From Bacteroidaceae bacterium (GTDB lineage Bacteria > Bacteroidota > Bacteroidia > Bacteroidales > Bacteroidaceae), in contig JAEEGS010000004.1 in the NCBI GenBank assembly GCA_016280445.1, positions 1 through 63,414 on the forward strand: a stretch of 63,414 bases of DNA, given 5' to 3'. Every line of letters starts with the position of its first letter. Position 1 is the first letter of the stretch. The notes beneath the pieces are model-generated. The model did no database searches, had not been told where the DNA came from, and worked only from the letters and a program-made list of their open reading frames with translations. Below are positions 1 through 63,068 of the stretch, piece after piece. The position numbers and the translations under genes are program-made.

Positions 1-525
1 CTCATCGAGAAGTACAACAAGCAGTACCGCACGAAGGACGTGATGTTCAACTGCGAGATGATTCCAGCCGAGAACGTGGGCGTGAAGCACGCCAAGTGGG
101 ACCGCGAGGACGGCTACTTCGTGCCACGCGACTGCTACAACTCCTATTTCTATGTGGTGGAAGACGACTCCCTGAGCATCATCGACAAGTTCAAGCTGCA
201 CGGCGCACCCTACATCGAGCACCTCACAGGTGGTTCAGCGCTGCACATGAACCTCGAAGAGCACCTCTCCAAACAGCAGTATGCGAAGCTGCTCGAGGTG
301 GCTGCACAGGAAGGTTGCAACTATTTCACCTTCAATATTCCCAACACTGTCTGCAACGATTGCGGCCATATTGACAAGCGTTATCTGCACGAATGTCCGA
401 AGTGTGGCAGCAAAAATATTGACTACATGACCCGCATTATCGGCTATCTCAAGCGCGTGAGCAACTTCTCACAGCCACGTCAGGAAGAGGCTGCACGTCG
501 CTACTACGCTCATGCTTCAGCATAA
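1..525 (+). CDS. nrdD: Anaerobic ribonucleoside-triphosphate reductase, C-terminal part (partial at window start)
   Basis: The frame is open from base 1, so only the last 174 residues are present. NrdD is the class III reductase that turns ribonucleoside triphosphates into deoxyribonucleotides without oxygen, using a glycyl radical. Two CxxC pairs at residues 118/121 and 132/135 of this fragment form the C-terminal zinc site. The motif RIIGYL follows, whose glycine (about residue 148, 27 residues from the end) is the expected radical site. Upstream, GYFVPRDCYNSYFY and APYIEHLTGGSALHMN are typical NrdD sequence. The activase gene nrdG follows after 127 bp on the same strand. Identification is firm; the missing start lies outside the window. 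Confidence 0.97.
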   Translation, partial: LIEKYNKQYRTKDVMFNCEMIPAENVGVKHAKWDREDGYFVPRDCYNSYFYVVEDDSLSIIDKFKLHGAPYIEHLTGGSALHMNLEEHLSKQQYAKLLEVAAQEGCNYFTFNIPNTVCNDCGHIDKRYLHECPKCGSKNIDYMTRIIGYLKRVSNFSQPRQEEAARRYYAHASA

Positions 526-652: not shown

Positions 653-1135
653 ATGCTCAAGTATGTCAATACAGGCGTGGTGTTTCAGGAGATTCCTGAC
701 GAGGTGACCTTGGCCATCAACATCTCAAACTGTCCGTGTCATTGCCCAGGCTGCCACTCGCAGTACCTGTGGGAAGATATCGGCATGCCGCTCACCACCG
801 ATGCCATCGATGCCTTCGTGGAGAAGAACGGGAAAAACATCACCTGCATCTCCTTCATGGGCGGCGATGCCGAACCTCGGCGCATCAACCGCCTGGCACA
901 GTACATCCACGAAGAGTATCCTGACCTCAAGGTGGCCTGGTACAGCGGTCGCATGCGCCTCTCCCCAGAAGTGAACAAGGACGAGTTCGACTACATCAAA
1001 GTCGGCCCCTACCTCCAACACCTCGGTCCCCTCAACAAGCCCACCACCAACCAACGCCTCTACCGCAACAACCATCAGGGCGGATGGGAAGACATCACCA
1101 GCCGCTTCTGGTCAGCCCATGAACAGGGCAAATGA
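653..1135 (+). CDS. nrdG: Anaerobic ribonucleoside-triphosphate reductase activating protein (radical SAM)
   Basis: This 160-residue protein has the radical SAM cluster motif CxxxCxxC at C27, C31 and C34 (within CPCHCPGC). It carries the 4Fe-4S cluster that cleaves S-adenosylmethionine and puts the glycyl radical on NrdD. The SFMGGDAEP stretch is the usual second SAM-contact strand of NrdG. The length is slightly above the common 150-155 residues. The gene lies 127 bp downstream of nrdD on the same strand and is followed by a strong terminator, so the two probably form one transcription unit, consistent with a strict anaerobe. The start at 653 gives an N-terminus typical of the family (LKYVNTGVVFQEIP). 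Confidence 0.96.
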   Translation: MLKYVNTGVVFQEIPDEVTLAINISNCPCHCPGCHSQYLWEDIGMPLTTDAIDAFVEKNGKNITCISFMGGDAEPRRINRLAQYIHEEYPDLKVAWYSGRMRLSPEVNKDEFDYIKVGPYLQHLGPLNKPTTNQRLYRNNHQGGWEDITSRFWSAHEQGK

Positions 1136-5614: not shown

Positions 5615-6394
5615 TTAGTGCACGTCGATGCCGTCGAAGTAAAGCTCGGAGATGACGGTGTCCTCGTACTTGGTGCCAGGATAGACCTCCATGATCTCGA
5701 AGCGGAGGTGCCAGCTGGGTTTGTTGGAGTCGTGATAACCCAGTGCGATGAAGGGATATTCGTTGTTCTCCTCGGCCTTCTTGGCTTCGGCTGGTGGGAG
5801 TGGGGTGGTGAGGTCGAAGGACTGCACCCCACGGATGTCCTGCAGGTCGAGGATGGCGTAAGGCTTGCCCAGATAATAGACCTTGATCTGCTTGGGACGC
5901 GAGTTGGCTTCCCATGCCGCCTGCGTCTTCACGTGACCACCCACGATGCTCACATGGGTGACACGGGGACAAGCACCCTCAAACTCGTAGTCGAGCCACT
6001 GGCCGATGCCCTGACCCGGCACTCCCTCAGCCCACACCGACTCGTGGTTGAAGTCATGGGCATTCTTGGGCAGGTAGTTGAAGCGTCCCTGCGACTTCAG
6101 ATGGCTCGATGCCGTCACCCGCTTCACGTCGCCACCGCAGTACCAACTGCAATAACCAGCGTAGAGGTCCGTCAGAATCACGCTCCCTTCCACAATCTCG
6201 CTCTGTCGTTGCCATTCGGCCTCCGTCATGCTGTCGGGGTCTTTATCGGCCTTCTCGCTCAAGGCATGATACTCCTTCATCACAGCATCCGAAGGCATGA
6301 GATCCACGCTCTCAGGCTTGATGTGCCGCAACTCCTGTGCTTGTCCCGCAAGTGCCGCCATCGCCAATGTGGCAGCCAATGCTATCTTTTTCAT
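5615..6394 (-). CDS. Exported protein with NADase-type glycan-binding (discoidin-like) domain
   Basis: The 259-residue product starts with a signal peptide (MKKIALAATLAMAALAGQAQ). From about residue 95 it matches my memory of the NADase-type glycan-binding fold. The signs are TASSHLKSQGRFNYLPKNAHD, then SVWAEGVPGQGIGQWL, a VSIVGGHVKT strand, and NSRPKQIKVYYLG followed by an FDL strand and a C-terminal ELYFDGIDV. Such domains bind sugars on bacterial or host surfaces. It is the first gene of the minus-strand cassette 6394-1210 and the only one with a recognisable extracellular binding domain, so it may be the sensor or anchor of the set. Upstream lies the AT-rich flank of the replication origin region. 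Confidence 0.8.
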   Translation of the reverse strand: MKKIALAATLAMAALAGQAQELRHIKPESVDLMPSDAVMKEYHALSEKADKDPDSMTEAEWQRQSEIVEGSVILTDLYAGYCSWYCGGDVKRVTASSHLKSQGRFNYLPKNAHDFNHESVWAEGVPGQGIGQWLDYEFEGACPRVTHVSIVGGHVKTQAAWEANSRPKQIKVYYLGKPYAILDLQDIRGVQSFDLTTPLPPAEAKKAEENNEYPFIALGYHDSNKPSWHLRFEIMEVYPGTKYEDTVISELYFDGIDVH

Positions 6395-6752
6395 ACATCA
6401 GTGTTTTAAGTTAGTAATGTGCGTGCAAAAATAGAAAATCAAAAAGAAACCACCAAATAAATGGCTGATTTTTTCTTTCAGTCGAAGATTTCCTTTAAAC
6501 GTACAGATGTTTGATACGAAAACCCGACCAAATATAAAGGGTTTCGCAAAAGTTTGATACGAAAATCCGACCAATCACAACGTATAAGAACGTCTTTTTA
6601 CTCATCTCCTCCTTCTAAAAAGAGAAAGAATTGATGAAAAAAAGAACGAAAAAGGATCTGACTCTTCTTTTTTGTGTTTAGTTAGTTTAACACGTTTATA
6701 TCATTTAGATGGAGTGTAACATACAGAAAACCAATAAACTATAAAACAAATC
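6395..6752. other. AT-rich flank of the iteron array, no gene
   Basis: About 350 bp between the cassette start and the first iteron. It is strongly AT-rich (A-tracts at 6430-6470 and 6615-6655), as expected for a DNA-unwinding region beside an iteron origin. It contains the two direct repeats described separately. I see no DnaA box matching TTATCCACA and no credible coding sequence. Confidence 0.6.
6508..6574. repeat. Pair of direct repeats in inverted orientation relative to the iterons
   Basis: GTTTGATACGAAAA, followed by a Y-CCGACCAA end, occurs at 6509-6531 and 6552-6574, start to start 43 bp (about four helical turns). The end CCGACC is the reverse complement of the iteron start GGTCGG, and GTTTG is the complement of its end CAAAC, but the spacer is about 4 bp longer. 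These could be operator-like or auxiliary Rep sites. Confidence 0.7.
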
Positions 6753-7102
6753 AGTCGGATAAACCAAACAAGCAGGTCGGGCTTTCCAAAGAAAAAGTCG
6801 GGTAATCCCAACTGATAGGTCGGAAAAAACAAAGGTAAAGGTCGGACATTCCCAACAAAAGCCCCTTTACGGTCGGGTAATCCCAACTGGGTCGGCTTTT
6901 CCCAACACCCTGGTCGGGGATTCCAAACTGGACAGGTCGGGAAAACCAAAGATGATGCGGTCGGGTAATCCCAACTCGCTCGGTCGGACTTTCCAAACTC
7001 CCGTGGTCGGATAAACCAAACTGGCGGGTCGGAGATTCCCAACTTCCTCAGCACGAGTTTGGTCGGGAAAACCAAACAGGGGAGCGGTCGGACTTTCCAA
7101 AC
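6753..7102 (+). repeat. Iteron array of a replication origin, 15 copies of 17 bp
   Basis: Fifteen direct copies of GGTCGG-N5-CCMAAC (17 bp) start at 6753, 6775, 6796, 6818, 6840, 6871, 6890, 6912, 6935, 6959, 6982, 7005, 7027, 7061 and 7086. Most start-to-start distances are 21-25 bp, about two turns of helix, with three exceptions (31, 19 and 34). Ends GGTCGG and CCAAAC or CCCAAC are strongly kept; the middle varies but is A/T-rich. The array lies directly upstream of a Rep_3-type initiator gene, which is the classic layout of an iteron-controlled origin. Confidence 0.93.
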
Positions 7103-7137
7103 ATCGAAAAAAACTGCGGATTTTGCGTCCTCTTTCC

Positions 7138-7168
7138 TTGTGCTTATCAAGGAAAAGTTGTACCTTTG
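7138..7168 (+). promoter_or_regulatory. Promoter of the rep gene
   Basis: TTG (7138-7140), 20 bp, then TACCTTTG (7161-7168), matching the Bacteroidales -33/-7 pattern. It sits between the last iteron and the start codon at 7196, so Rep bound to the iterons could control its own gene. A TTG at 7166 in the rep frame lies inside the -7 box and cannot be the start. Confidence 0.75.
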
Positions 7169-7195
7169 CACGACAACATAGAAAAGGACGAACCC

Positions 7196-8758
7196 ATGGA
7201 CGAAAAAGAACATACGCACATCCCCGATGCCGAGGCAGGGCAGGGAAGCACACAAGGTGCTGCAACCCGTGTTGCGGCAGGTGCTGCCGATGATGCTGGT
7301 GCCGCAGGCAATGCGACGGTGGGGGAGGGGAATGCCTCTTCAGACACCGCTGCAGGGAATGTGAAGTCAGCCAAGTCGAAGCGCAAGCCCTCGGCCAAGC
7401 CGGTGCGCTACATCAAGCAGCCTTACACCGTGTCGGCCATGCAGGCTGACCTTTCCAAGCAGCAAATCAAGATTCTGGTCGGCATGATGCAGAGCATCCA
7501 GGATGGTGTGCAGGAGATGTTCGAGCGGCAGAACCGCACGAACGGCCAGTTGCTGCTCTTCCCTGAACTGGAGGACGACCATGTGAACATCGACTTCAAG
7601 TTCAGCGATGTGGTGGACCGTCCCGACTACTATGAGAATGTGGAGAAGGTGGCGCAGAAGTTCGTCGAGATGGTGTTCCGCTACGAGGACAAGGAGCAGG
7701 GCGAGGTGACGCTGTCGCACTTTGTGGACGAGGTCACCTATCCGTCGCGTGGCAGCAAGCGCGACAAGATTCGTTTCTCCTTCACCAAGAAGCAGGCCGA
7801 GAAGGTGTTCAACTTCACCATGTACAGCAAGTACATGCTCTCCGTGGCTTTTCAGGCCGACAGCAAGTACACGGCCCGTCTCTATATGCTCATCACTTCT
7901 GCCCGTGGCTACAGCACTGCCGAAGGCGGCACGTTCCACTGGTATGTCTCATATCAGGAACTGCGCCGCATGCTGGGCTGTGACGTGAAGGAAGGCGGGC
8001 AGTGGGTGACCCGTTCCCGCAAACTCTACAAGCACTTCAAGGCCGACATCCTGCGTGTGGCCGAGAAGGAACTGAAGGAGTTGGCCGACCGCGGCGACTG
8101 CGACTGCTGGTTTGAGTTTGTCGAACTGCCCACCGACTGGAAGGGTCAGCCCAAGACGCTTGACTTCGTGGTGCATCTCAGCGAGATGGGTCTGCTGGAG
8201 GCGCAGCACACTGCCGAAGCCGCCACGTTCCGCCAGTTGCGTCAGTTGATGCAGGACGAGTGGCACCTCACAGAGCGCGACTGTTCCGCCTTGCTCGGCA
8301 AGGTGCCCGAGTGGCGCGTGGCCCAGTTCGAGGCGAGTGTGCACGAACTTGCCGCTGTCATGAAGCAACGTGCCGACGAAATCAAGGACGTCCACCGCTA
8401 TGCCAAGAAGAGTCTGACCCAGATTGTCAAGGAGATGGTAGAACCCATCCCGCAAGGGTTCGGCGACGCTCCGGAGAGTGCTTCCGTTGCCGCCGCAGAC
8501 GAAGCATCGGGCAACGGGTCGCAAGCCCAGTCAGGAAAGGGACTTCTCACCCCCGACGAGGTGGTGAGCCGCTGGTTTCAGGTGCTCGACCAGAAGGACT
8601 ACCAGATGTATGTGCGTGGTTTGGAGCGCAGCATGACGGTTGACAGCGAGGGCATCCACCTGAAGGTGGCTCATGAGGAAGTGCGGCAGCAGATGGAGGC
8701 TTGGCGTGACCGCTTGGAGGCCGCTGCAGGTTTGCCGCTGGAGATGAAAGTGGGGTAG
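7196..8758 (+). CDS. Rep_3-family replication initiator protein
   Basis: The 520-residue product has a Rep_3 (RepB/RepA-like) initiator region from about residue 80 to 325. It starts MQADLSKQQIKILVGMMQ and contains the first winged helix with LLLFPELEDDHVNIDFKFSDV. The segment FNFTMYSKYMLSVAF, then YTARLYMLITSA, is typical, as is the second winged helix with YVSYQELRRMLGC and KLYKHFKADILRVAEKEL. Such proteins bind iterons and open the origin; 15 iterons lie directly upstream. It is longer than usual for the family, with an Ala/Gly-rich N-terminus (1-70) and an extra C-terminal part of about 190 residues. The ATG at 7196 is chosen because it lies about 20 bp after the expected transcription start and follows GAAAAGGA. 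Confidence 0.9.
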   Translation: MDEKEHTHIPDAEAGQGSTQGAATRVAAGAADDAGAAGNATVGEGNASSDTAAGNVKSAKSKRKPSAKPVRYIKQPYTVSAMQADLSKQQIKILVGMMQSIQDGVQEMFERQNRTNGQLLLFPELEDDHVNIDFKFSDVVDRPDYYENVEKVAQKFVEMVFRYEDKEQGEVTLSHFVDEVTYPSRGSKRDKIRFSFTKKQAEKVFNFTMYSKYMLSVAFQADSKYTARLYMLITSARGYSTAEGGTFHWYVSYQELRRMLGCDVKEGGQWVTRSRKLYKHFKADILRVAEKELKELADRGDCDCWFEFVELPTDWKGQPKTLDFVVHLSEMGLLEAQHTAEAATFRQLRQLMQDEWHLTERDCSALLGKVPEWRVAQFEASVHELAAVMKQRADEIKDVHRYAKKSLTQIVKEMVEPIPQGFGDAPESASVAAADEASGNGSQAQSGKGLLTPDEVVSRWFQVLDQKDYQMYVRGLERSMTVDSEGIHLKVAHEEVRQQMEAWRDRLEAAAGLPLEMKVG

Positions 8759-8961: not shown

Positions 8962-9717
8962 ATGAAAAATCAGAAAAACAACAAGATTCAACATTTGTTC
9001 GGCATGCTGAACAACAGCCTGTACATTGCCCTCGTGACATTGTTTCTGGGTGGTATGATGACCTCTTGCGACGGCAATCCGCTCGACAAGATCACGAGCC
9101 TCTTTGGCGACGACAGCACAGAAGTGGTGGACGACGAGGATGAACCAGAAGTGGACATTCCTGAGACTCCAATTACTAAGCCTGAAACACCCGTGGCAAC
9201 CCCAGAACCGGCAGCCACACTCATTGAGAGCATCGGCATCGACAGCAAGGACTTCACACTCCCTGCAGGTCAGACCAAGCAGTTGAAGGCCAACGTGCAG
9301 CCTGCCGTGAACGACGACGAGGTGACTTGGAAGTCTTCAGACGTGCGTGTAGCCACAGTGGACGAGAAGACAGGTGTGGTGAAGGCTGTGAAGGAAGGTT
9401 CCGCTAACATCATCGCCCAGGCTACTGGTTCGCAGCAGAGTGCCAGCGTGATGGTGACCGTGACTCCAAAGCCCGTTGCCAATCCTAACTACGGCACTGT
9501 GAACCTCGGTTATGGCGTTTACACAGGCGACCTGAAGAACGGCCAGCCTCATGGCCACGGCACCATCGTGTACAGCACCAGCCACAAGGTGGTGAACTCG
9601 GCTGACTACTACGCAGTGCGTGGCGACAAGTACGAAGGTGACTTCCGCGATGGTCGCATCTCTGGCGGCATGGGTTACTTCTACCACAACGGTGATGTGA
9701 TTGCCATCAATCCATAA
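8962..9717 (+). CDS. Lipoprotein with BIG2 immunoglobulin-like domain and MORN-like repeats
   Basis: The 251-residue product has a signal sequence ending in a lipobox (GMMTSC, Cys36). An acidic, Pro/Thr-rich stalk follows (residues 40-90). Residues 93-175 form a BIG2 domain (IDSKDFTLPAGQTKQLKA, then DEVTWKSSDVRVATVDEKTG, GSANIIAQATG). The C-terminus (180-251) reads like MORN repeats: YTGDLKNGQPHGHGTIVY and YEGDFRDGRISGGMGYFYHN. BIG2 domains are adhesion or spacer modules on the cell surface. It is the first gene of a five-gene plus-strand cluster, with its own promoter upstream. The function of the combination is unknown. Confidence 0.85.
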   Translation: MKNQKNNKIQHLFGMLNNSLYIALVTLFLGGMMTSCDGNPLDKITSLFGDDSTEVVDDEDEPEVDIPETPITKPETPVATPEPAATLIESIGIDSKDFTLPAGQTKQLKANVQPAVNDDEVTWKSSDVRVATVDEKTGVVKAVKEGSANIIAQATGSQQSASVMVTVTPKPVANPNYGTVNLGYGVYTGDLKNGQPHGHGTIVYSTSHKVVNSADYYAVRGDKYEGDFRDGRISGGMGYFYHNGDVIAINP

Positions 9718-9770
9718 GCGAACCTTCGGGGCTTGAAGCGTCCCGTTAGCCAGCACAGTTTCGGAAGAAC

Positions 9771-11006
9771 ATGAACAGAAGAACAAGCATCTTGATAGCG
9801 GCATTGGCGATGGTGGTACAGATATGTGCCGCCACGCCTTTCCATGCGTCCGACTCGGTTGGAAGACGTTTCCGCACCGAACGATTGGGGCAGATGGCGC
9901 AAGCCCTCCACCTCAACCTGCCCGACTCATTGGCCGCCAATGCGCAGATGGATAGCGTATCTTCCTTCATGGGCAAGCCCGTCTATGTGTGCACTGATGT
10001 CTATGGCGAGGTCAGCCACATCGGCTATCAACTCTTTGCCCCTCAGTTGGCCGAGTATTACCAGAACGAGCCGCTTTTCCACTTTGTGGAGCGATATCTG
10101 CTCGAACTCGACCTTCGGATTGACGGCAAGAACCCCGACCTGCGCATGGACATCGACCAGGTGGTGCTCACCCGAGGCAGCATCAGCCTCCTGCGCACCC
10201 TCACCCCCCAGAGCAACTTCTCCTTCGACTTCGAGGAGATACGCCGCCACTTCTACCGTCTCACGTGGACACTCTCCAGCGGAGCCGTGGTCAGCATGGT
10301 CATCCCTGCCGACTGCCAACTCATCATGGGCGCCAACTCGCCCGAGATGGAGTTGATGGCTGAGCGCGACATCCTTCGTGCCATGCCGCTCGACGAGGAG
10401 AGGGTCATGTCGCGTTGGGTGGAGGCCAAGGGTGTGCGTGAGAACAACTTCCTCATTCTGGAGGGCGGCACCTACATGAGCAGCTACATCCGTGGCGACC
10501 TCTACTTCACGGAGCAAGACGGGCAGCGCAACCTGCTCATCTCCTCATGGCAGCCGCGCGAGAGCGTGAACAACCTCATGCTGACGGGACTCAGCAAACT
10601 CGACCTCCCCGTGTCGCTCACCATGAACCGCTACGGCGGCAAGCGCGACCAACTCAGCATCACGCTGAGCCAATACATCTCCTTCTGTCTGCAGGAAGGG
10701 TGCCGCCTCTACTTCGGCATCAAGCAGGTGAAGGACGGTGTGCTCACGGGTGCCCTGTTCGCCTACAACGAGCAGTTCGCCTACACGCACTTGCTCGATG
10801 TCACCTTCCCCCTGAGCCTCTTGGGCAACGGGACGAATGAGTCGGCTGAGGGAACCACAGAGGAAACTGCCGAGGGCGCTGAAGCGGAGACTCCAGCCGT
10901 TGGAGGCGAGAACATCCGCTGCATGGCATGGGTGTACATCCCGCTGAAACTGGTGGACGACCGACTTTTCGACCAACAGTTCAAACGCGGTGCCGAGAAG
11001 GAGTGA
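9771..11006 (+). CDS. Exported protein of unknown function (411 aa)
   Basis: The product starts with a signal peptide (MNRRTSILIAALAMVVQICA, cut near ATPFHA). I do not recognise a domain. The body is a mix of strands and helices with VYVCTDVYGEVSHIGYQLF, LLELDLRIDGKNPDLRMDID and a run ending CRLYFGIKQVKDG. A short acidic Glu/Thr stretch near residues 358-383 (TEETAEGAEAE) breaks the C-terminal part. The start is 53 bp after the stop of the lipoprotein gene, and the next gene follows 88 bp later, so all are probably co-transcribed. It may be a periplasmic or outer-membrane-associated partner of its neighbours. Confidence 0.8.
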   Translation: MNRRTSILIAALAMVVQICAATPFHASDSVGRRFRTERLGQMAQALHLNLPDSLAANAQMDSVSSFMGKPVYVCTDVYGEVSHIGYQLFAPQLAEYYQNEPLFHFVERYLLELDLRIDGKNPDLRMDIDQVVLTRGSISLLRTLTPQSNFSFDFEEIRRHFYRLTWTLSSGAVVSMVIPADCQLIMGANSPEMELMAERDILRAMPLDEERVMSRWVEAKGVRENNFLILEGGTYMSSYIRGDLYFTEQDGQRNLLISSWQPRESVNNLMLTGLSKLDLPVSLTMNRYGGKRDQLSITLSQYISFCLQEGCRLYFGIKQVKDGVLTGALFAYNEQFAYTHLLDVTFPLSLLGNGTNESAEGTTEETAEGAEAETPAVGGENIRCMAWVYIPLKLVDDRLFDQQFKRGAEKE

Positions 11007-11094
11007 AACTCCTCGCCGATGGTCGTTCTCGTTCCGTCCGTGAATTGATTACACATTATTAATATAATAACAATCATCAAATAAGAAAAACATC

Positions 11095-12135
11095 ATGAAA
11101 AAGAACACTTTGCAAACCATTCTTGCCTTTGTCCTCCTGATGGGCATCTCCCTGGGGAGCCAGGCAGTAAACGTTTATCTGAAGACTGACAAGCCACGTA
11201 CAGCCGCCATCAACAATGCTGAGCGCAACTTGGCTAACCTTCTCACCAATATCGACGCTGCCCAGCGCAGCCGTAACAACGTGTCCATGCGCGGTGTGGG
11301 CATGTCCGACTTCTCCAAGAAGTCACTCGCCCGTCTGTGGGCAGTCACTCCTTTCCACTGCGAGAGCAAAATCCAGAGTGCAGGTCTGGAGCGCCGTCTT
11401 TGGGTGCTTCGCAACGGCACCATGATGGTGCGCGACATTCCACTCACCATCACTCCGCTCGATGGCGGTTATGGCATGAACGAGTATCAGGAGGCTACCG
11501 TTGAGTTCGACCGCAACGGCACCATCACCGACTTCCGCTTCACCTTCAACGCACAAGCCGCCGGCATCAACCTTGAGGAAGGTGGTGAAGAGGTGCAGAG
11601 TTGGGAGGAGCAGTATGTCATCCTGCAGACCCTGGAGCGTTTCCGCACAGCCTACAACATGAAGGACCTCGCCACTATCGAGGCCATGTTCTCCGACGAC
11701 GCCCTCATCATCACGGGTAACGTGGTGCAGCGCCGCAAGCCAGGCGACCGTGGCGGTGCTACTTACGACGTGCAGTTCAACCGTCAGAACAAGCAGCAGT
11801 ACATCAGCAACCTGCGCCGTTGCTTCGCCCGCAACTCATGGATTAACGTGACGTTCGACTTGGACGAGGACTATCTGGCACAGCAGACTGGCAATCCTAA
11901 CGTTTCCTGCATCAGCCGTTCCACCAAGGATGGCACGAAGTATGGTGTGCGTCTGCGCCAGACCTGGAAGTCAAGCACCTACTCTGACGTGGGTCTGCTC
12001 TTCCTCCTCTTCGAGTTCCCTGCTGACGGCAGCGACCCCATCATCCACGTGCGCACTTGGCAGCCAGAATCTGCTGGTGGCAAGCGTTTGGGCTACCGCG
12101 ACGACATCTCCACACTGGGCGGCTTCGGCTTCTGA
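11095..12135 (+). CDS. Exported protein with NTF2/SnoaL-like domain
   Basis: The 346-residue product has a signal peptide (MKKNTLQTILAFVLLMGISLGSQA style, cleaved near AVNVYL). The N-terminal half is not recognised. From about residue 180 it resembles a nuclear-transport-factor-2 fold: ILQTLERFRTAYNMKDLATI, then MFSDDALIITGNVV, a long central part and WKSSTYSDVGLLFLLFEF. NTF2-like domains are small cone-shaped folds used for binding or catalysis; no catalytic residues can be assigned here. It lies third in the five-gene cluster. A GC-rich inverted repeat without a T-tract follows before the next gene and may tune expression. Confidence 0.78.
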   Translation: MKKNTLQTILAFVLLMGISLGSQAVNVYLKTDKPRTAAINNAERNLANLLTNIDAAQRSRNNVSMRGVGMSDFSKKSLARLWAVTPFHCESKIQSAGLERRLWVLRNGTMMVRDIPLTITPLDGGYGMNEYQEATVEFDRNGTITDFRFTFNAQAAGINLEEGGEEVQSWEEQYVILQTLERFRTAYNMKDLATIEAMFSDDALIITGNVVQRRKPGDRGGATYDVQFNRQNKQQYISNLRRCFARNSWINVTFDLDEDYLAQQTGNPNVSCISRSTKDGTKYGVRLRQTWKSSTYSDVGLLFLLFEFPADGSDPIIHVRTWQPESAGGKRLGYRDDISTLGGFGF

Positions 12136-12156
12136 TGCCCTTGTGAACAATAACAG

Positions 12157-12182
12157 GAGGGGGGAGACGGCTTCCCCCTCCG
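12157..12182 (+). other. GC-rich hairpin inside the five-gene cluster
   Basis: GGAGGGGG pairs with CCCCCTCC around a short loop between the genes at 11095 and 12211. There is no T-tract, so it looks like an mRNA-stability or partial attenuation element rather than a full terminator. Confidence 0.5.
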
Positions 12183-12210
12183 AACTCCAATCCTAAAAAC
12201 GAAAACGACC

Positions 12211-13812
12211 ATGAAAAGAATCCTGACAACATGGCTTCTGCTGACCGTGACTGCCGTCGTGGCATTGGCACAGTCGCAGTATATCTCCTACGAACGTTAT
12301 GAGGCGGGTGACCGTGAGGCCAGTATGGATGGCGCCGGTGGTGTGCTCATCCTCTCGCAGCACAGCGACTTGGCCATCACAGTTGTCAACGCCAATCTCC
12401 CTTCCATTCTCAACAAGGGGCAGGGCGCCAGCGGCTTCTACGAGTATGAGGTGAGAGTGGACCCGAAGGAGACCCGCAATCCGAAGTTGGAGGTGAACCG
12501 CCGTGGCGACGTGAACCGTGTGTCCATCACGGCTTCCACACGTCCCAACGCCTTCCGTGCCTATCTGGTGAAGGAAGTGGCCAAGCCCATCCACTTGGAG
12601 GATCAGACGGCTCCCAACGATGCCATCCTCGACTCCACGTTGGCCGAGGTGGTCATCTCGTCAGCCATCTCCGACCTGCAGGTGAACTGTGAAGCCCTGA
12701 AGGCGAGAGGTGCTGAGGTGAAGACCCTCACCAACACCAGCGACAGGAGCATCACCAGCAAGTCCATCATCATTCCTATCCGTATTCTCCGCGAGGCTCA
12801 GCAGAACGCCGAGCGTGCCACTGAGGCTTACAACGAGAAGAACCGTCTGCTGGAGGACCCCAAGGCCGCCAAGAAACTGAAGGACAGTTTCTATGACGAA
12901 CTGGATGCCCTCGAGTCGAAGATGAACGAGGCGCAGACAGAATACAACAGCCTGACCAACATCTCCATCAGTGCTGCCGGCACCAACGTCCTTTCCATCT
13001 ACGTGGGCGACCTCAAGCCCCGCAGCAAGAAAGTGTATGGCGTGGCTGTGCTGAAGGTGGTGGAAGAGAAGCACGTGTCGGTGTGCAGCGGCTTCCTGGC
13101 CGAAGGTGCGCGACTCTTTGCCACGCGTGAGTATGCCAATGCCAAGAAGGCCTTTGGCAGTGCGCTCAAGGCGAAGGACTGTCCTGCCGACCTGAAGCGC
13201 AGCATCAACACCAACATCAACCAGTGCGACACGTGTGCCCTCTACGAGCGTTATGCCATGGCCGCCCTTACCAAGTTGAAGGAGGTGCGCGACAATGGCG
13301 GCACGCAGGAGGAAGTGGTGCGCTATGCCTCGGCAGCCATCGAGTTCCTGGAGAAACTCACCTTGGTGAATCCTTGCGAGTTCTACAGCGACCGCATTGT
13401 GCGTCTGAACAAGATTATCGAGGACCAGCCGCTCAACATCAAGTTCACCTTTGTGGAATGGCTCAGCAATGCGACGGGCTACTACGAGGGCGACCGTCTT
13501 GACGGCATCGAGGTGTGGGCTTACAGCGGCGACGAGTTGCCGAAGCCTGCCGACTACCGCAGCGAGAAGCGTTTCGCCAATCTGATGACCCGCAACAAGT
13601 GCCAGCGTCTGGGCACCTCCGAAGAGGGAGGCATCCTCGACCTGACCTTCGACCGCAAGTCACTCCCCACGGGTCTCTTCATCCATCCTGTCAGCGAGAA
13701 CCTGCGGGTGAAGACCTCCTACATCGACATGCGCGAGGTGATGCAGAACTCTGACGGCGACTACCAGAAGCGTCAGTACCGTACGAAGATGTACAGGGAG
13801 AACAAGAAATAG
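12211..13812 (+). CDS. Exported protein with coiled-coil and TPR-like region, unknown function (533 aa)
   Basis: A signal peptide (MKRILTTWLLLTVTAVVALAQ) is clear. Residues 190-250 are a charged helical region (REAQQNAERATEAYNEKNRLLE, shown in part; then YDELDALESKMNEAQTEYN) likely to form a coiled coil. Residues 290-410 look TPR-like: FLAEGARLFATREYANAKKA followed by KAFGSALKAKDCPADLKRSI, with cysteines CDTC nearby. The C-terminus (430-533) is beta-rich. TPR-containing exported proteins often act as scaffolds. It is fourth in the cluster, 75 bp after the NTF2-like gene and 33 bp before the glycine-zipper gene. No enzymatic motif is visible. Confidence 0.8.
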   Translation: MKRILTTWLLLTVTAVVALAQSQYISYERYEAGDREASMDGAGGVLILSQHSDLAITVVNANLPSILNKGQGASGFYEYEVRVDPKETRNPKLEVNRRGDVNRVSITASTRPNAFRAYLVKEVAKPIHLEDQTAPNDAILDSTLAEVVISSAISDLQVNCEALKARGAEVKTLTNTSDRSITSKSIIIPIRILREAQQNAERATEAYNEKNRLLEDPKAAKKLKDSFYDELDALESKMNEAQTEYNSLTNISISAAGTNVLSIYVGDLKPRSKKVYGVAVLKVVEEKHVSVCSGFLAEGARLFATREYANAKKAFGSALKAKDCPADLKRSINTNINQCDTCALYERYAMAALTKLKEVRDNGGTQEEVVRYASAAIEFLEKLTLVNPCEFYSDRIVRLNKIIEDQPLNIKFTFVEWLSNATGYYEGDRLDGIEVWAYSGDELPKPADYRSEKRFANLMTRNKCQRLGTSEEGGILDLTFDRKSLPTGLFIHPVSENLRVKTSYIDMREVMQNSDGDYQKRQYRTKMYRENKK

Positions 13813-13845
13813 AACCCCTTTCAATTAACTTCAAATCCAAACAAC

Positions 13846-14568
13846 ATGAAAACATTTATTTTGAAGAGCCTTTTGGCGTTCATCGTGCTGAGTTTCAGCG
13901 CGACGACGGCATCGGCACAGTTGGGAAAACTGCTCGGCAAGAGCAAGGCAAAGACCGAGGCGGCTGCCGACACTACGGCGGTGGATAGTGCGGCTAATGC
14001 CATTGACTGGGACAACATCCCCGTCTATCATGCCCAGTTGGTCAATCTGACCGACGAGGCAGGCAATCCGCTCCTCAACGAGGACGGCACCCAGCAGACC
14101 CGCGTGATGCTCGTCGACCAGTTCGGCAACTATCGTAGCCAGGCTGCTGTCGATGCGCAGCGCAAGAAACTCAAGAAGTACATTGGCAACATCGTGGCCA
14201 AGGTGGGTGGCGCTGCCGCCGTGGGAGCCGTGTCTGGTCTGTTGGCAGGCGGAAGCAAGAAGGGAACCGGTGCAGCCATTGGTGCCGCCGCGGGTGTGGT
14301 GGCAGGATTGGCCCTCAGTGCCAACGACATCAAGCGTGCCCGCGAACTCCACAAGTCGCTCAAGGAGCAGGACAAGTTGATGGAGGCCTATGCCAAGAAC
14401 TTCACCAACGAGGGTGAGAAGGTGGACGCTGCCGCCAACGTGGAGAGCATCGACGGACTCACCATCGACAAGGACGCTGCCGTGTCGAAGACTGCCGGAG
14501 AAATCAAGGCCATTGTGGACAGCGAGGACTTCGACAAGCCTGCTGAGGGCATCTGGGACAGCATCTAA
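13846..14568 (+). CDS. Exported glycine-zipper protein
   Basis: The 240-residue product has a signal peptide (MKTFILKSLLAFIVLSFSAT, cut near ASAQLG). The middle (about residues 122-158) is a glycine-zipper double hairpin: VGGAAAVGAVSGLLAGGSKK, then GTGAAIGAAAGVVAGLALSA. Glycine zippers pack tightly in membranes and occur in outer-membrane lipoproteins and pore-forming proteins. A basic helix (RARELHKSLKEQDKLMEAYA) follows. It closes the five-gene cluster and is followed by a terminator. A role as membrane anchor or oligomeric channel of the cluster is an inference. Confidence 0.82.
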   Translation: MKTFILKSLLAFIVLSFSATTASAQLGKLLGKSKAKTEAAADTTAVDSAANAIDWDNIPVYHAQLVNLTDEAGNPLLNEDGTQQTRVMLVDQFGNYRSQAAVDAQRKKLKKYIGNIVAKVGGAAAVGAVSGLLAGGSKKGTGAAIGAAAGVVAGLALSANDIKRARELHKSLKEQDKLMEAYAKNFTNEGEKVDAAANVESIDGLTIDKDAAVSKTAGEIKAIVDSEDFDKPAEGIWDSI

Positions 14569-25342: not shown

Positions 25343-25380
25343 ACGAACGTGCAGGTGAACCTACACCTCAATATCCATTC

Positions 25381-25419
25381 AAGAACATTCGGGGGAAGCA
25401 CCTCCGGATGTTCTTTTTC
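25381..25419 (+). terminator. Terminator-like hairpin directly before the C10 protease start
   Basis: AAGAACATTCGGGGG pairs with CCTCCGGATGTTCTT (two mismatches) and is followed by TTTCT. The T-tract ends only a few bases before the start codon at 25427, so it both ends the upstream transcript and could limit expression or translation of the next gene. Confidence 0.75.
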
Positions 25420-25426
25420 TCTCATG

Positions 25427-41600: not shown

Positions 41601-42038
41601 ATGGGAATTCAAGCTCGTAAAGCAAAGATGAAACTCACTTTTCGTGAGGGCAAACCTGAAGTGTACAAACTTCGTCAACTCACCTACCCTGCCGTGACCT
41701 TCACGCAGTTGGTGTCTGAGTGCGCCAACTCCTGCGGTGTGAACCAGTCGCAGAGCAAGGCAGTGATTGATGCGCTGGTGAACCGCCTCGTTCACTACAT
41801 GGAACTGGGCCACGGCGTGAAGATGGGCGACTTCGGACAGTTCAAGCCCACGTTCAACTCGAAGGTGGCGCACACGCTCGAGGAGACCACGCTCGACACC
41901 GTGACCATCAAGAAAATCCAGTTCTATCCTGGCAAGGCGTTCAAGAACATGCTCGACAACCTCTCCATCACGGGAGCCAGCGAGGCCTTGAACGTGCAGG
42001 AGCCTGACAGCGGTGACGACGAGGATGACGGCGAATAA
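41601..42038 (+). CDS. HU-like DNA-binding protein (HU-HIG type)
   Basis: The 145-residue protein is longer than HU. Its middle (ECANSCGVNQSQSKAVIDALV, given in part, and HYMELGHGVKMGDFGQFKPT) has the HU fold, and the N-terminus MGIQARKAKMKLTFREGKPE matches the HU-HIG subgroup that is frequent in Bacteroidales and often found near smalltalk, amidase and polysaccharide loci. The C-terminus is acidic (SGDDEDDGE). It likely binds DNA and may shape the local chromosome. It closes the small cluster and is followed within 6 bp by a hairpin repeat. Start at MGIQARK. Confidence 0.88.
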   Translation: MGIQARKAKMKLTFREGKPEVYKLRQLTYPAVTFTQLVSECANSCGVNQSQSKAVIDALVNRLVHYMELGHGVKMGDFGQFKPTFNSKVAHTLEETTLDTVTIKKIQFYPGKAFKNMLDNLSITGASEALNVQEPDSGDDEDDGE

Positions 42039-46540: not shown

Positions 46541-47836
46541 ATGGCAATGAAACAAGTACCAGTGCTGCTGCTCACAGGCTATCTGGGCAGCGGCAAAACC
46601 ACCTTGCTCAACCGCATTCTCGGCAATCAGAAAGGAATCAAGTTCGCCGTCATCGTCAACGACATCGGCGAAGTGAATATCGATGCTGACCTCATCCAGC
46701 AGGGAGGCATCGTCGACCAGCAGGACGACTCGCTCGTGGCGCTGCAGAACGGATGTATCTGCTGCACCCTGAAGATGGATCTCGTGGAACAACTCACCGA
46801 CCTGGTGAAGATGCAGCAGTTCGACTACATCGTCATCGAGGCGTCGGGCATCTGTGAACCTGCCCCCATCGCACAGACCATCTGCTCCATCCCCACGATG
46901 GAACCCAAATACTGGGCGAATGGGCTGCCACGGCTCGACTGCATCGTCACCGTGGTGGACGCCCTCCGCATGAGGGACGAGTTCGGCTCTGGCGACGCGC
47001 TCACCAAGTCCAACATCGACGAGGAGGACATCGAGAACCTCGTCATCCAGCAAATCGAGTTCTGCAACATCGTGCTCCTCAACAAGGCGGCCGAAGTGGA
47101 ACCCAAGGAACTGGAGCGCATCACCCAAATCATCCGCGCCCTCCAGCCCAAGGCCGAAATCATCCCCTGCAACTATGGCGACGTGGACTTCGGCAAGATT
47201 CTCCACACCAATATGTTCGACTTCGACAAAGTGGCCACCTCCGCTGCCTGGATTGCAGCCGTGGAGGGAGAACACCACGACGAAGACGAGGATGAAGAGG
47301 AGGAAGACCATGACCACCATGAGCATGAGCATCATGAACATGAGCACGAGCACCATCATGAACATGAGCACGACCACCACTCCGAGGACTCCGAACACGC
47401 TGAACATCATCACCACCATCACCATCACCATCATCATCACCACGATGAAGGTGAAGCAGAAGAATACGGCATCGGCACCTACGTGTACTTCGCCCGTCGC
47501 CCCATGAAACTTGGCCTGTTCGACGACTTTGTAGCCCGTCTGTGGCCGAAGAACATCATCCGCGCCAAAGGCATCTGCTGGTTCAAGGGCGAGGAAGACA
47601 TCTGCTACCTCTTTGAACAGGCAGGCAAGCAGTTCTCGCTCAAGAACTGCGGACAGTGGTACGCCACCATGCCGAAGGACCAACTCGACCGTCTCCTGGA
47701 GGCCGAACCCAAACTCCGCGCCGACTGGGATGCCGAGTACGGCGACCGCATGCAAAAACTCGTCTTCATCGGCCAACACATGGACGCGAACATGAAGGCC
47801 TACCTGAAAGAGGCACTGGACATGTGCCTGGCATAA
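46541..47836 (+). CDS. CobW/G3E-family GTPase with a His-rich metal-binding insert
   Basis: The 431-residue protein is a COG0523 GTPase: Walker A GYLGSGKTTLLNRIL (residues 13-20), the metal-binding GCICCTL (C72, C74, C75), then IVIEASGICEPAPIAQ as the switch/Walker B and LLNKAAEVEP as the NKxD-like motif. Residues 243-300 are an acidic and histidine-rich insert ending in thirteen consecutive His, which should bind zinc or another divalent metal. The C-terminal CobW_C domain (YFARRPMKLGLFDDFVARLW) follows. Family members deliver zinc or cobalt to client proteins. The nearby zinc peptidase (M23) and the zinc-ribbon cluster are possible clients, which is speculative. Confidence 0.93.
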   Translation: MAMKQVPVLLLTGYLGSGKTTLLNRILGNQKGIKFAVIVNDIGEVNIDADLIQQGGIVDQQDDSLVALQNGCICCTLKMDLVEQLTDLVKMQQFDYIVIEASGICEPAPIAQTICSIPTMEPKYWANGLPRLDCIVTVVDALRMRDEFGSGDALTKSNIDEEDIENLVIQQIEFCNIVLLNKAAEVEPKELERITQIIRALQPKAEIIPCNYGDVDFGKILHTNMFDFDKVATSAAWIAAVEGEHHDEDEDEEEEDHDHHEHEHHEHEHEHHHEHEHDHHSEDSEHAEHHHHHHHHHHHHHDEGEAEEYGIGTYVYFARRPMKLGLFDDFVARLWPKNIIRAKGICWFKGEEDICYLFEQAGKQFSLKNCGQWYATMPKDQLDRLLEAEPKLRADWDAEYGDRMQKLVFIGQHMDANMKAYLKEALDMCLA

Positions 47837-47997: not shown

Positions 47998-48801
47998 ATG
48001 ACAAAGATTATTAGTTTCTTGAACCACAAGGGCGGCGTGGCAAAGACGACCACGTGTGCCAATTTGGCGACGGCGCTGTGGATTCTGGGGAAGAAGGTGT
48101 TGCTCATCGACACCGACCAGCAGTGCAACCTTTCGGGTGTGCTGGGCTTCTCGCAGAAGGAGGGCGACCCGACGCTGAGCGACTGGCTGAAGGAGCCGGT
48201 TTCCCCACCCATCTACATCAGGTATGACGGTCTCGACTTCATTCCGGCGTCGAAGGCGCTGCGCAACATGGAAGCGGAACTGCTGAACAAGCGGAGCCGT
48301 GAGACGATTCTGGCCCGCAAGCTGGAGCAGGTGAAGACGGAGTATGACTATGTCATCGTGGACTGCGCGCCGGGCGACTCGGTGCTGAACGACAATGCCC
48401 TCTCGGCATCCGACACGGTCTTCATCCCCACCGAGTGCAGCGGTTTCTCGTTGCAGGGCATGCAGAACCTGCTGCTGGCCATCCGCGAGATACAGCAGGA
48501 GATTAACCCCGGGCTGCAGATTGGCGGCTATCTGCTGGTGAAGTACGACCGGCAGACGAAGATTGCCAAGGAGGTGAGCCGCTACTTCGAGCGGCAGGAC
48601 GAGGTGCCCACGTTGAAGACCCGCATCCGCAAGTGCGTGAAGTTCGACGAGTCGCCGCTGGGCCATCAAACCATCTTCGAGTATGCACCTGAGTGCAACG
48701 GCGCCGAGGACTACATGCGGCTGGCCGAGGAACTGACGGGCGAGAAGCGTCCGAAGGACTGGAGGACACGCGCTCAGAAAGCCGAGGCGGAGAATGCATA
48801 G
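47998..48801 (+). CDS. parA: ParA-family partition ATPase
   Basis: The 267-residue protein begins MTKIISFLNHKGGVAKTTT, the deviant Walker A of ParA (Lys11 and Lys16), followed by ANLATALWILGKKVLLIDTD and, at about 118-128, DYVIVDCAPGDSVLN (Walker B). It lacks a DNA-binding N-terminal extension, so it is of the short type (ParA of the type Ib class). Start at 47998 follows a promoter-like TATCTTTG (47961-47968). The next gene codes for a small partner, and a 10-bp array lies between them, starting at the parA stop codon. ParA drives segregation of low-copy plasmids and chromosomes. Forty kilobases from rep, it probably belongs to the same replicon. Confidence 0.92.
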   Translation: MTKIISFLNHKGGVAKTTTCANLATALWILGKKVLLIDTDQQCNLSGVLGFSQKEGDPTLSDWLKEPVSPPIYIRYDGLDFIPASKALRNMEAELLNKRSRETILARKLEQVKTEYDYVIVDCAPGDSVLNDNALSASDTVFIPTECSGFSLQGMQNLLLAIREIQQEINPGLQIGGYLLVKYDRQTKIAKEVSRYFERQDEVPTLKTRIRKCVKFDESPLGHQTIFEYAPECNGAEDYMRLAEELTGEKRPKDWRTRAQKAEAENA

Positions 48802-48901: not shown

Positions 48902-49297
48902 ATGGCTAACAACAAACGGAAAGACCTCAACATCGGCTCCTTCATCGACGAAGTGAAGGCCGACCAGACGACCACGCAACGCAAGAGTTCTCCCATCGTG
49001 GAACCCGAGGTGGCGCCACAGACTGCTCCGGCAACGGCAACCCCCTACCCTTCTGTGGGCAGACCTGCCAAGAAGCAATCGCTGCTGAGCAAGAAACTCG
49101 CCAAGCTCGTCTACATTGACGACGAGACAGAGTTGCAGCTCAAACTCATCAAGACCTTCCAGAACTACGATTACAAGGAGGTGATTTTCACAGCCATCCA
49201 CGAGTTCATGGAGCACCACTATCGCGACATGCGACTGGATGAGAGCGGGGTGAAGAAGGTGGACAAGATTATCAGGGAGTACAAGACCCGCAGCTGA
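48902..49297 (+). CDS. Small partition partner, ribbon-helix-helix-like
   Basis: The 131-residue protein follows parA by 100 bp. The first 65 residues are flexible and polar (KSSPIVEPEVAPQTAPATAT). From about 75 the sequence YIDDETELQLKLIKTFQNYD, then YKEVIFTAIHEFMEHHY, fits a beta strand followed by two helices, the ribbon-helix-helix pattern of small centromere-binding partners such as ParG or Omega. It ends in a basic helix (KKVDKIIREYKTRS). It lacks the ParB N-terminal CTPase and is much shorter than ParB. So the locus is a type Ib partition system, by length and order. It would be expected to bind the 10-bp array just upstream. Confidence 0.75.
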   Translation: MANNKRKDLNIGSFIDEVKADQTTTQRKSSPIVEPEVAPQTAPATATPYPSVGRPAKKQSLLSKKLAKLVYIDDETELQLKLIKTFQNYDYKEVIFTAIHEFMEHHYRDMRLDESGVKKVDKIIREYKTRS

Positions 49298-62028: not shown

Positions 62029-63068
62029 ACGTGAGTTCGATGAAAATACATTAAAAATAATTGCTTAATTATTAGCACATTAGCGGTATTTTTAGTAACT
62101 TTGCAGTGACCAAACCACAAATGTCAACTAAAACGTACCGCTAATGTTTACCGAGGACAAAGTTACTGAATTTTTCTGTATGGCAGATGATTTTTGCAAG
62201 TTTTTTTGATGCAATGATGGCAAAATACACGATAAAGGCGCCTAAAAAGAGGCAATATCACCGCGACGGGACGCTGTCCAAAGCAGAGGTCATGCTAATC
62301 ATGATCCTGTTCCACGGCTCCGGCTACCGATGCCTGAAGCACTTCTATCTGGAGCATGTCACGAAGCATCTCCGCCACCTGTTCCCCCACCTGGTGTCCT
62401 ATAACCGCTTCGTTGAGCTGGAGAGGGAGGTCACCATTCCCCTGGCGCTGTTCATCAAGAAGGTGCTCCTGGGCAAATGCACGGGCATCAGCTTCGTTGA
62501 CAGCACCCCGCTCAGGGGTGTGCAAGAATCAGCGCATCTATATTCACAGGACGTTCAAGGGCATAGCCCAAAGGGGGAAATGCTCCGTGGGCTGGTTCTT
62601 TGGCTTCAAGCTGCACCTCATCTGCAATGAGAAAGGCGAGCTGCTGAACTTCATGATCACCCCCGGGGACGTTGACGACCGGAAGCCGCTTGACCACAAG
62701 ACATTTGTGGAGTTCCTCTACGGGAAGTTTGTCGGGGACAAGGGATATATCGGGAAGGAACTCTTCCAGCGCCTCTTTGTTGACGGCATTCAGCTGATAA
62801 CGAAGCTCAAGAGCAACATGAAGAGGGCTGTGATGAGCCTGTCGGACAGGCTGCTGACAAGAAAGAGGGCTATCATAGAGACCGTCAATGACGAGCTGAA
62901 GAATATCGCTCAGGTGGAGCGTTCAAGGCACAGGTCGTTTGACAACTTCATGGTCAACATGCTGGGAGCTCTGGCGGCGTATTGCTTCTTTCCAAAGAAA
63001 CCATGCATCGCATGTGAAAGAATATGGGACAACCAGTTAACATTATTCTAAATTCGTCGAACTCACGT
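62029..63068 (+). mobile_element. IS982-family insertion sequence, complete with inverted ends and TATT target duplication
   Basis: Left end ACGTGAGTTCGATGAA (62029-62044) and right end TTCGTCGAACTCACGT (63053-63068) are inverted repeats with one mismatch in 16. The bases outside, TATT (62025-62028) and TATT (63069-63072), are a 4-bp target duplication. The element is 1040 bp and holds one transposase gene, in keeping with IS982 family size. The transposase frame is broken twice (see there). Confidence 0.88.
62144..63051 (+). pseudogene. IS982-family transposase, broken by two +1 shifts in homopolymers
   Basis: Read with two corrections the product has 301 residues and a normal IS982 transposase: MFTEDKVTEFFCMADDFCKF at the start, then HRDGTLSKAEVMLIMILFHG, FVDSTPL (first acidic residue), GWFFGFKLHLICNEKGELLN, ITPGDVDDRKPLDHKTF and IIETVNDELKNIAQVERSRH. 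The first shift is one extra T in the run of seven at 62201-62207, the second one extra G in GGGG at 62515-62518. Both are homopolymer length changes, which fit either a decayed copy or read errors. The DDE residues themselves are intact. The stop at 63051 is 2 bp before the right inverted repeat. Confidence 0.85.

Follow-up and report, generated by a model that had tools for sequence, protein, structure and literature searches.

A probable small circular replicon with a Rep_3/iteron origin and, apparently, the only ribonucleotide reductase of its Minthosoma-type host

Rep_3 iteron plasmids such as F and R6K, with their initiators RepE and pi, are among the described systems closest to a replication locus of contig JAEEGS010000004.1 (63,414 nucleotides, assembly GCA_016280445.1), the whole of which is referred to here as the window. 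The window is contig C51 of a 3.07-Mb genome (G000) of a genus that includes Candidatus Minthosoma and is called Minthosoma here, gut bacteria related to Prevotella. Its locus shares with the F and R6K plasmids the Rep_3 fold of the initiator (Rep), direct iterons lying by an AT-rich stretch, and inverted half-sites. Unlike these plasmids, it has 15 iterons and a DnaA domain I-like module on Rep, and it lies on a conserved circle with apparently the only ribonucleotide reductase (RNR) of the cell. We consider it quite probable that the window represents a small (about 64-66 kb) circular replicon, inherited vertically in a host of the Candidatus Minthosoma type, a mini-chromid with a Rep/iteron origin, apparently the only RNR (nrdD/nrdG) and an exchanged replicator block.

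Small Rep_3 replicons with an indispensable function are known in Persicobacteraceae, Aureimonas and further bacteria as rrn plasmids, where, according to PMC10645730, such a replicon alone holds an indispensable gene set and has long been kept. The same paper describes rep genes without sequence similarity on the conserved rrn plasmids of two Persicobacter species, movement of Rep_3 from one plasmid to another within a single host, and parAB on Persicobacter rrn plasmids; in the survey reported there, Rep_3 genes accompany universal single-copy genes less often than other rep genes. The window circle resembles the rrn plasmids as a small Rep_3 replicon that is the apparent sole holder of an indispensable gene, and differs from them in that this gene encodes RNR and not rRNA.

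One genus of the family, g30, was taken to be Prevotella from its two-replicon genomes and the sizes of P. melaninogenica. Prevotella second chromosomes belong to the same bacterial family as the window and likewise carry a Rep_3 gene on a secondary replicon, by which no iterons were found according to the part of PMC4755523 that treats this gene. In line with this lack of iterons, no 9-mer occurred more than three times at the g30 Rep loci that we examined. As on the window circle, nrdD sits on the Rep replicon in a P. nigrescens record and in two g30 genomes (G115 and G388). However, the Prevotella-type secondary replicons seen here measure 0.57-1.98 Mb, encode a Rep of 382-389 amino acids (aa) and show no DnaA_N domain in the one Rep scanned. 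Vibrio chromosome 2 also depends on an iteron-type initiator of a secondary chromosome, RctB, which belongs to another family and comes with further control sites; the window circle is like it in having an iteron-type initiator on a secondary replicon and possible further sites for control, and unlike it in initiator family and size. Chromids in general, as outlined in the relevant passages of PMC12456017, combine plasmid-type replication and partition genes with a core gene, as the window circle appears to do, but on average they exceed megaplasmids and so are far larger. In sum, the parts found here are ordinary (Rep_3, iterons, ParA) and the whole is unusual: an apparently indispensable enzyme encoded on a small circle, a DnaA-like tail on the initiator and a replicator that seems to change over a backbone that stays.

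The iteron array and the Rep_3 initiator

The replication locus comprises the following features.

6380..6752, no strand: AT-rich region (60-72% AT) to the left of the iterons, a likely unwinding region (40-base AT profile)
6510..6574, minus strand: TTTGATACGAAAAYCCGACCAA, present twice and containing inverted iteron half-sites, possible Rep-dimer operators (sequence)
6753..7102, plus strand: iteron array, 15 x GGTCGG-N5-CCMAAC (pattern search, shuffles)
7161..7168, plus strand: Bacteroidetes-type -7 box TACCTTTG of a candidate rep promoter (motif)
7196..8758, plus strand: rep, Rep_3 initiator of 520 aa (open reading frame (ORF), Pfam, AlphaFold2, structure search)
8543..8755, plus strand: C-terminal DnaA domain I-like (KH-like) domain of Rep, residues 450-520 (AlphaFold2 of this part alone; DnaA_N homology through relatives)

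By allowing up to two mismatches, we found 15 iterons of 17 bp, all on the plus strand (10 exact, four with one mismatch and one with two). Their starts are spaced by 22, 21, 22, 22, 31, 19, 22, 23, 24, 23, 23, 22, 34 and 25 bp, with 10 of the 14 spacings at 22-24 bp, that is about two helical turns. In 500 Markov shuffles of positions 6400-7195, the pattern occurred 0.12 times on average and twice at most. Moreover, the 16-base iteron core was found 12 times at the array and only twice elsewhere in the 3.07-Mb genome, which equals the count of the backward control. These data bear out the first-pass annotation, made from the sequence alone, in which 15 iterons had been placed upstream of a 520-aa Rep_3-type initiator. 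We also noticed two inverted half-sites CCGACC, at 6524 and 6567, each within a repeated 22-mer, that this annotation had not mentioned; their inversion suggests dimer-operator control. The promoter that it had assigned to rep is plausible, given a -7 box at 7161 which we take to be of the Bacteroidetes type. A conserved AT-rich element before the iterons, suggested by visual comparison of the loci, was not distinctive on scoring and is not claimed.

Rep matched Pfam Rep3_N at 3.7e-9 over residues 79-233 or so, the sole Rep_3 match in the genome, while Rep3_C was reported by Pfam in relatives and not for the window protein. An AlphaFold2 model built from an alignment of the window Rep and 11 relatives (mean predicted local distance difference test (pLDDT) score of 67) showed a winged-helix fold like that of pi and RepE, a low-confidence linker at residues 417-449 and a C-terminal domain at about 450-520. 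Its closest PDB entry was the pi initiator on iteron DNA (2nra, E 5.9e-7), followed by RepE. Together, these data support the assignment of the locus as an iteron/Rep_3 origin on a replicon that carries a core gene.

Relatives of Rep were detected in 17 of the 61 genomes searched first, in 54 of 399 drawn from the family and, over all searches, in 19 of 42 Minthosoma genomes. The named genomes with a relative, other than Candidatus Minthosoma, are metagenome-assembled genomes of Bacteroidaceae, Prevotellaceae and Bacteroidales, with titles that mostly point to rumen, deer or horse gut. Among 72,556 plasmid records, 40 gave a Rep match, all below 60% identity (25.9% for the top-listed one) and none covering 80%. 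A second Rep_3 group, B (loci L052, L053, L054, L055 and L056), consists of proteins of 520-537 aa with 69-80% identity to its first row and one outlier at 38%; a ParA relative lies upstream of rep in this group and several members have iterons of the type TCGGACA..AGTTAC.

A probable circle of about 65 kb and its ribonucleotide reductase

Four features of the window matter for the nature of the replicon.

1..525, plus strand: 3' end of nrdD, class III RNR, within which the contig begins (profile match)
653..1135, plus strand: nrdG, activase of NrdD (Fer4_12; one match in the genome)
47998..48801, plus strand: ParA partition ATPase (AAA_31; Pfam), with a start codon chosen by us and 89-90% identity to its counterparts in G002, G014, G017 and G027
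62356..63051, plus strand: DDE transposase near the right end (Pfam), which may be the reason why the contig ends there

By comparing contigs across the genus, we found the gene series nrdD, nrdG, Rep, DUF4953, SusC, SusD and ParA, with other genes in between, also on contigs C17 of G017 (65,252 bp) and C12 of G027 (54,475 bp). The same set minus some genes lies on C8 of G002 (63,572 bp), and part of it on C55 of G026 and in G014. First, the G027 contig has an exact terminal overlap of 99 bp, by which it closes at 54,376 bp; this 99-mer is confined to the two ends of the contig, and none of 16 other contigs compared contains its initial 40 bases. Second, the gene orders of the G017, G002 and G027 contigs and of the window are one circular permutation, save for local rearrangement (e.g. 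at 28.5-34.8 kb of the window). Third, a 12.4-kb contig of a sister species (C25 of G013) contains three segments in succession: window positions 6413 to 1, then the part of nrdD that the window lacks, and then window positions 62.0-56.4 kb with a gap at 61.3-57.8 kb. Its nucleotide identity to the window is 93-97% in the four long pieces that are most alike and 77-84% in other pieces. The two ends of the window are thus adjacent in this species, with about 1-2 kb missing between them, and the window appears to lack little of a circle that we estimate at about 64-66 kb.

Two observations weigh against our reading: the window contig itself has no terminal overlap, such an overlap being present in only one of 24 Rep contigs tested, and for 21 of its 49 ORFs the other circles offer no counterpart. 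Hence the separate circle that the first-pass annotation had proposed to look for is supported by a relative that closes and by a sister species that joins the window ends, but not by the window contig as such.

The single NRDD match and the single nrdG match in G000 are both on this contig. The class I/II RNR family PF02867 had no match in any of 19 Minthosoma genomes tested out of 42 (G003, G010, G011 and G061 included), whereas both control genomes of g30 matched. Judging from these profile searches, NrdD appears to be the only RNR of the host. We also observed that NRDD was missing from 13 of the 42 Minthosoma bins, among them 4 (G003, G010, G011 and G061) of the 15 bins with a completeness of 90% or more. 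Since a cell needs RNR, these bins probably lack a replicon. As a sign that binning missed the circle, this is suggestive only.

Of the 19 Minthosoma genomes with a Rep match, 8 (G000, G002, G017, G026, G027, G406, G035 and G414) have it on the same contig as NrdD. Rep and NrdD also lie on one replicon in the g30 genomes G115 and G388, about 15 kb apart, and in a 568-kb P. nigrescens record, about 200 kb apart. Only two of the 72,556 plasmid records held a NrdD relative at E 1e-20. Against an exclusive link of nrdDG to the circle stand contigs of 94-205 kb that carry both genes with no Rep match, in G016 (149 kb), G004 (205 kb) and G025 (94 kb), so that the location is not universal; these contigs are not shown to be chromosomal. 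Two NrdD types exist among Minthosoma genomes, one with E values mostly of about 1e-190 to 1e-197 and the other, the circle type, with about 1e-100. Circle-type NrdD of G027 and G017 is 84% identical to that of G115, and G004, G035 and G015 have both types.

We then asked what kind of replicon this is. Chromids have plasmid-type replication and partition genes, found here as Rep_3 and ParA, and are usually larger than megaplasmids, while the circle makes up about 65 kb of a 3.07-Mb genome. A second chromosome is a large replicon with several essential genes and rRNA or tRNA; at about 65 kb the circle is far from this, and the window gave no tRNA and no Rfam hit. A chromid would also resemble the chromosome in base composition; here the G+C content of the window, 52.9%, was compared with just two further genome stretches, which have 48.8% and 52.5%. 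Of the earlier proposal of a chromid or second chromosome, the chromid fits by function and the second chromosome is not supported; we call the replicon a mini-chromid for what it does and not for its size.

A conserved backbone and a seemingly exchanged replicator

Three further features delimit the replicator.

5615..6394, minus strand: gene with a Pfam NADase_transloc (F5/8 type C) domain, kept at the left edge of the replicator in other circles (Pfam)
8962..14568, plus strand: five ORFs without match in 15 other contigs compared (contig comparison)
14807..22290, plus strand: DUF4953 met-zincin, SusC and SusD, the conserved right flank (72-81% identity across circles)

The genes of the backbone are well conserved between the window and the other circles, with identities of 96-99% for the 3' part of nrdD, 86-89% for nrdG, 89-90% for ParA, 79-81% for SusC and 73-78% for SusD. 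In contrast, the window Rep shares only 28-29% identity with the Reps at the same place on the other circles (30-31% with that of G014), while those of G002, G017, G026 and G027 are 83-96% identical among themselves. The iterons follow the same pattern. The other circles have 3 to 11 copies of GTGACAAA..CCMAA by a strict pattern, plus inverted TTTGTCAC sites; the left half of the window iterons, GGTCGG, differs from this GTGACAAA and the right half is the same. Iterons of the relatives often read GTGACAAATT, a sequence which we take to be part of the F iteron.

In a tree computed without the near-duplicate rows G026 and G152, the Rep nearest to that of the window came from G022 (42-46% identity, support 100/99), on a contig that otherwise shares no gene with the circles and where we found no iterons upstream of rep. 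The ORFs at 8962..14568 probably form, together with rep, an exchanged block. Thus, it seems that in this lineage a diverged replicator took the place of the former one, with iterons, rep and the genes beside it, while the backbone was kept.

Alternatively, Rep and its iterons may have diverged unusually fast in place, which would be compatible with the circle. In favour of this, the branch leading to the window Rep is long (2.29), joins of long branches are the subject of a warning by the tree tool, and both the right iteron half CCMAAC and the layout of Rep are common to the relatives. Given that the nearest Rep lies on a contig without any other circle gene, that the 8962-14568 segment is foreign and that ParA remained at 89-90% identity, we regard fast divergence as unlikely, yet the most serious of the competing explanations.

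The mini-chromid also has to be compared with an ordinary mobile plasmid that carries nrdDG as cargo. The plasmid-type Rep, ParA, the transposase at one end, SusC/D-type cargo and the unshared ORFs mentioned above would all suit such a plasmid. On the other hand, backbone order is kept and many shared genes are 72-99% identical across species, no other RNR was found, and Rep matches in plasmid records are weak. Moreover, Pfam scans of 47 window ORFs yielded neither a relaxase, which a conjugative or mobilizable plasmid would have, nor a conjugation gene. We hold a mobile plasmid to be improbable.

As for a contig that is a fragment of a large second chromosome like those of Prevotella, with the array as its origin, we found that a Rep_3 relative lies on a replicon without dnaA in all three two-contig g30 genomes with a long match (G115, G149 and G388), nrdD being on that same replicon in two of them as stated above. 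A fourth two-contig genome, G380, has dnaA and a weak Rep match on one contig. The g30 Rep (382 aa) is without the extension domain, and in G115 it lies at 843 kb, off the origin defined by skew (a minus-to-plus switch near 0 in 20 samples of 20 kb, some masked), which counts against our own assignment too, since it means that Rep_3 relatives need not be an active origin. The 16S orientation in G388 likewise speaks against its Rep_3 gene as origin. Together with the closed 54-kb relative, the joined window ends and the lack of tRNA or Rfam hits, these findings make a second chromosome very unlikely. The Rep_3 genes of G115 (contig C1), G388 (C2) and G149 (C2), on replicons without dnaA, may be relics of an older replicon.

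Least likely of all is a plasmid remnant integrated in the main chromosome with Rep inert or a regulator, for which one may cite nrdDG on long Rep-less contigs in G016, G004 and G025 (at most 5 kb from a contig end in the first two) and which sits badly with closure and permutation in relatives and with an intact rep next to a full array whose iteron type follows the rep type.

The C-terminal domain of Rep and the proposed origin function

The first-pass annotation had noted an extra C-terminal part of Rep, which proved to be real, and had made no proposal for its identity. Modelled alone by AlphaFold2, residues 440-520 gave the order helix-helix-strand-strand-helix-helix-strand with a mean pLDDT of 85.8. 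DnaA domain I has a KH-like topology, helix-helix-strand-strand-helix-strand, and the order of elements in the extension fits this fold. Foldseek returned mostly KH-type chains (ribosomal S3, DciA, the tau C-terminus), none of them at E <=0.001.

By using hhalign, we compared extension profiles of the two Minthosoma groups, A (with the window) and B, whose Reps are 21-26% identical, with DnaA domain I of the family. Both aligned in register (A: E 1.9e-4, 22%; B: E 1.6e-4, 24%), against maxima of 1.6 and 1.7% in 200 shuffles per group under strict parsing, and at most 0.23% for windows before the extension. A first control for group A had one value of 99.6 among 100 shuffles, which we ascribed to parsing. 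Furthermore, Pfam DnaA_N (PF11638) was above cut-off in 6 of 8 Rep relatives from two other genera (best 3.4e-11) and below it in two. Of the three groups of relatives, two reached 99% against DnaA domain I and the third 68%. The link back to Minthosoma groups A and B was 94-96% for the g35a extension, 55-70% for g26 and 0.3-4% for g35b.

Several results argue against this identity. The C-terminal domain of the window alone gave 0.04% against DnaA domain I in hhalign, and Pfam on C-terminal pieces found nothing relevant; nor did the Rep of G017 match PF11638 above the Pfam cut-off. Direct comparison of groups A and B gave no match (0.6-1.7%), and the group A value depends on the rows used, with 5.8% when the window is left out and 8.3% with all ten rows. 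Taken together, the Rep extension likely looks like DnaA domain I, by a family-level homology that runs through the relatives. Among the literature matches listed, none described a Rep_3/DnaA_N fusion.

The evidence that the origin is active is mixed. The skew inversion at 6.4-7.1 kb that had been anticipated for the window was not clear there. Indeed, GC skew fits an iteron origin clearly only in the closed G027 circle and not in the window, G017, G002 or G026, which weighs against our assignment. Coding co-orientation with forks from the iterons was 0.788 in G027 (best possible 0.794) and 0.760 in G017 (0.766), and against the same assignment only 0.715 in the window (0.787) and 0.583 in G002 (0.843), 10.7 kb of the latter being masked. 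Next to the array, genes diverge as the first-pass annotation had it, whereas nrdD and nrdG (1-1135) point towards it. Also unfavourable is that no exact DnaA box was found in 6380-7195, where three have one mismatch; this lack is in keeping with a Rep that would bring its own DnaA-like module.

For replication, its direction and its copy number, we infer the following scheme. Rep monomers, docked on the phased iterons by means of two winged-helix domains, would melt the AT-rich DNA to the left of the array, and Rep dimers on the inverted half-sites may account for repression or handcuffing. The DnaA domain I-like tail probably serves to bring in the helicase of the host, either by itself or via DnaA, after which forks would leave the origin both ways. 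Finally, the circle would be segregated by ParA, and the presence of a 131-aa neighbour beside ParA suggests active partition.

The remaining features of the window are as follows.

41601..42038, plus strand: HU-HIG DNA-binding protein (Pfam)
46541..47836, plus strand: CobW-type GTPase (Pfam)
48902..49297, plus strand: 131-aa protein downstream of parA, without Pfam hit and, from its position, a candidate partition partner

NrdD, NrdG and HU had been listed in the first-pass annotation together with purN; the first three are present and purN was not seen among the 47 scanned ORFs, while the ParA gene had gone unmentioned. We also observed two C10-family peptidases with leucine-rich repeats (25349-26794 and 57874-60411), one of them with a Spi inhibitor domain, and an 1830-aa protein with an InlB B-repeat-like domain (49431-54923) that has no counterpart in the other contigs compared.

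As a tentative proposal, which we find plausible and still short of probable, the initiators of these replicons could represent a class in Bacteroidaceae in which a plasmid Rep_3 captured DnaA domain I, wiring iteron binding to helicase loading or DnaA control. Such replicons would hold the only dNTP-making enzyme of the cell and swap their replicator cassettes in situ, with inheritance of the essential backbone, perhaps escaping incompatibility with incoming iteron plasmids. A DnaA domain I module on a Rep_3 protein would offer a testable answer to how a helicase may be loaded without DnaA boxes, and an in-place swap of the replicator on an indispensable replicon, if true, would reveal a way for chromids to switch from one compatibility group to another. 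In practical terms, metagenome bins of the genus that seem to have no RNR at all may just miss the circle. An essential DNA-synthesis enzyme encoded solely by a plasmid-type circle of 65 kb, and that on a Rep_3 replicon, with which the survey in PMC10645730 found universal single-copy genes to be less frequent, would, if true, be a striking companion to the rRNA-operon plasmids.

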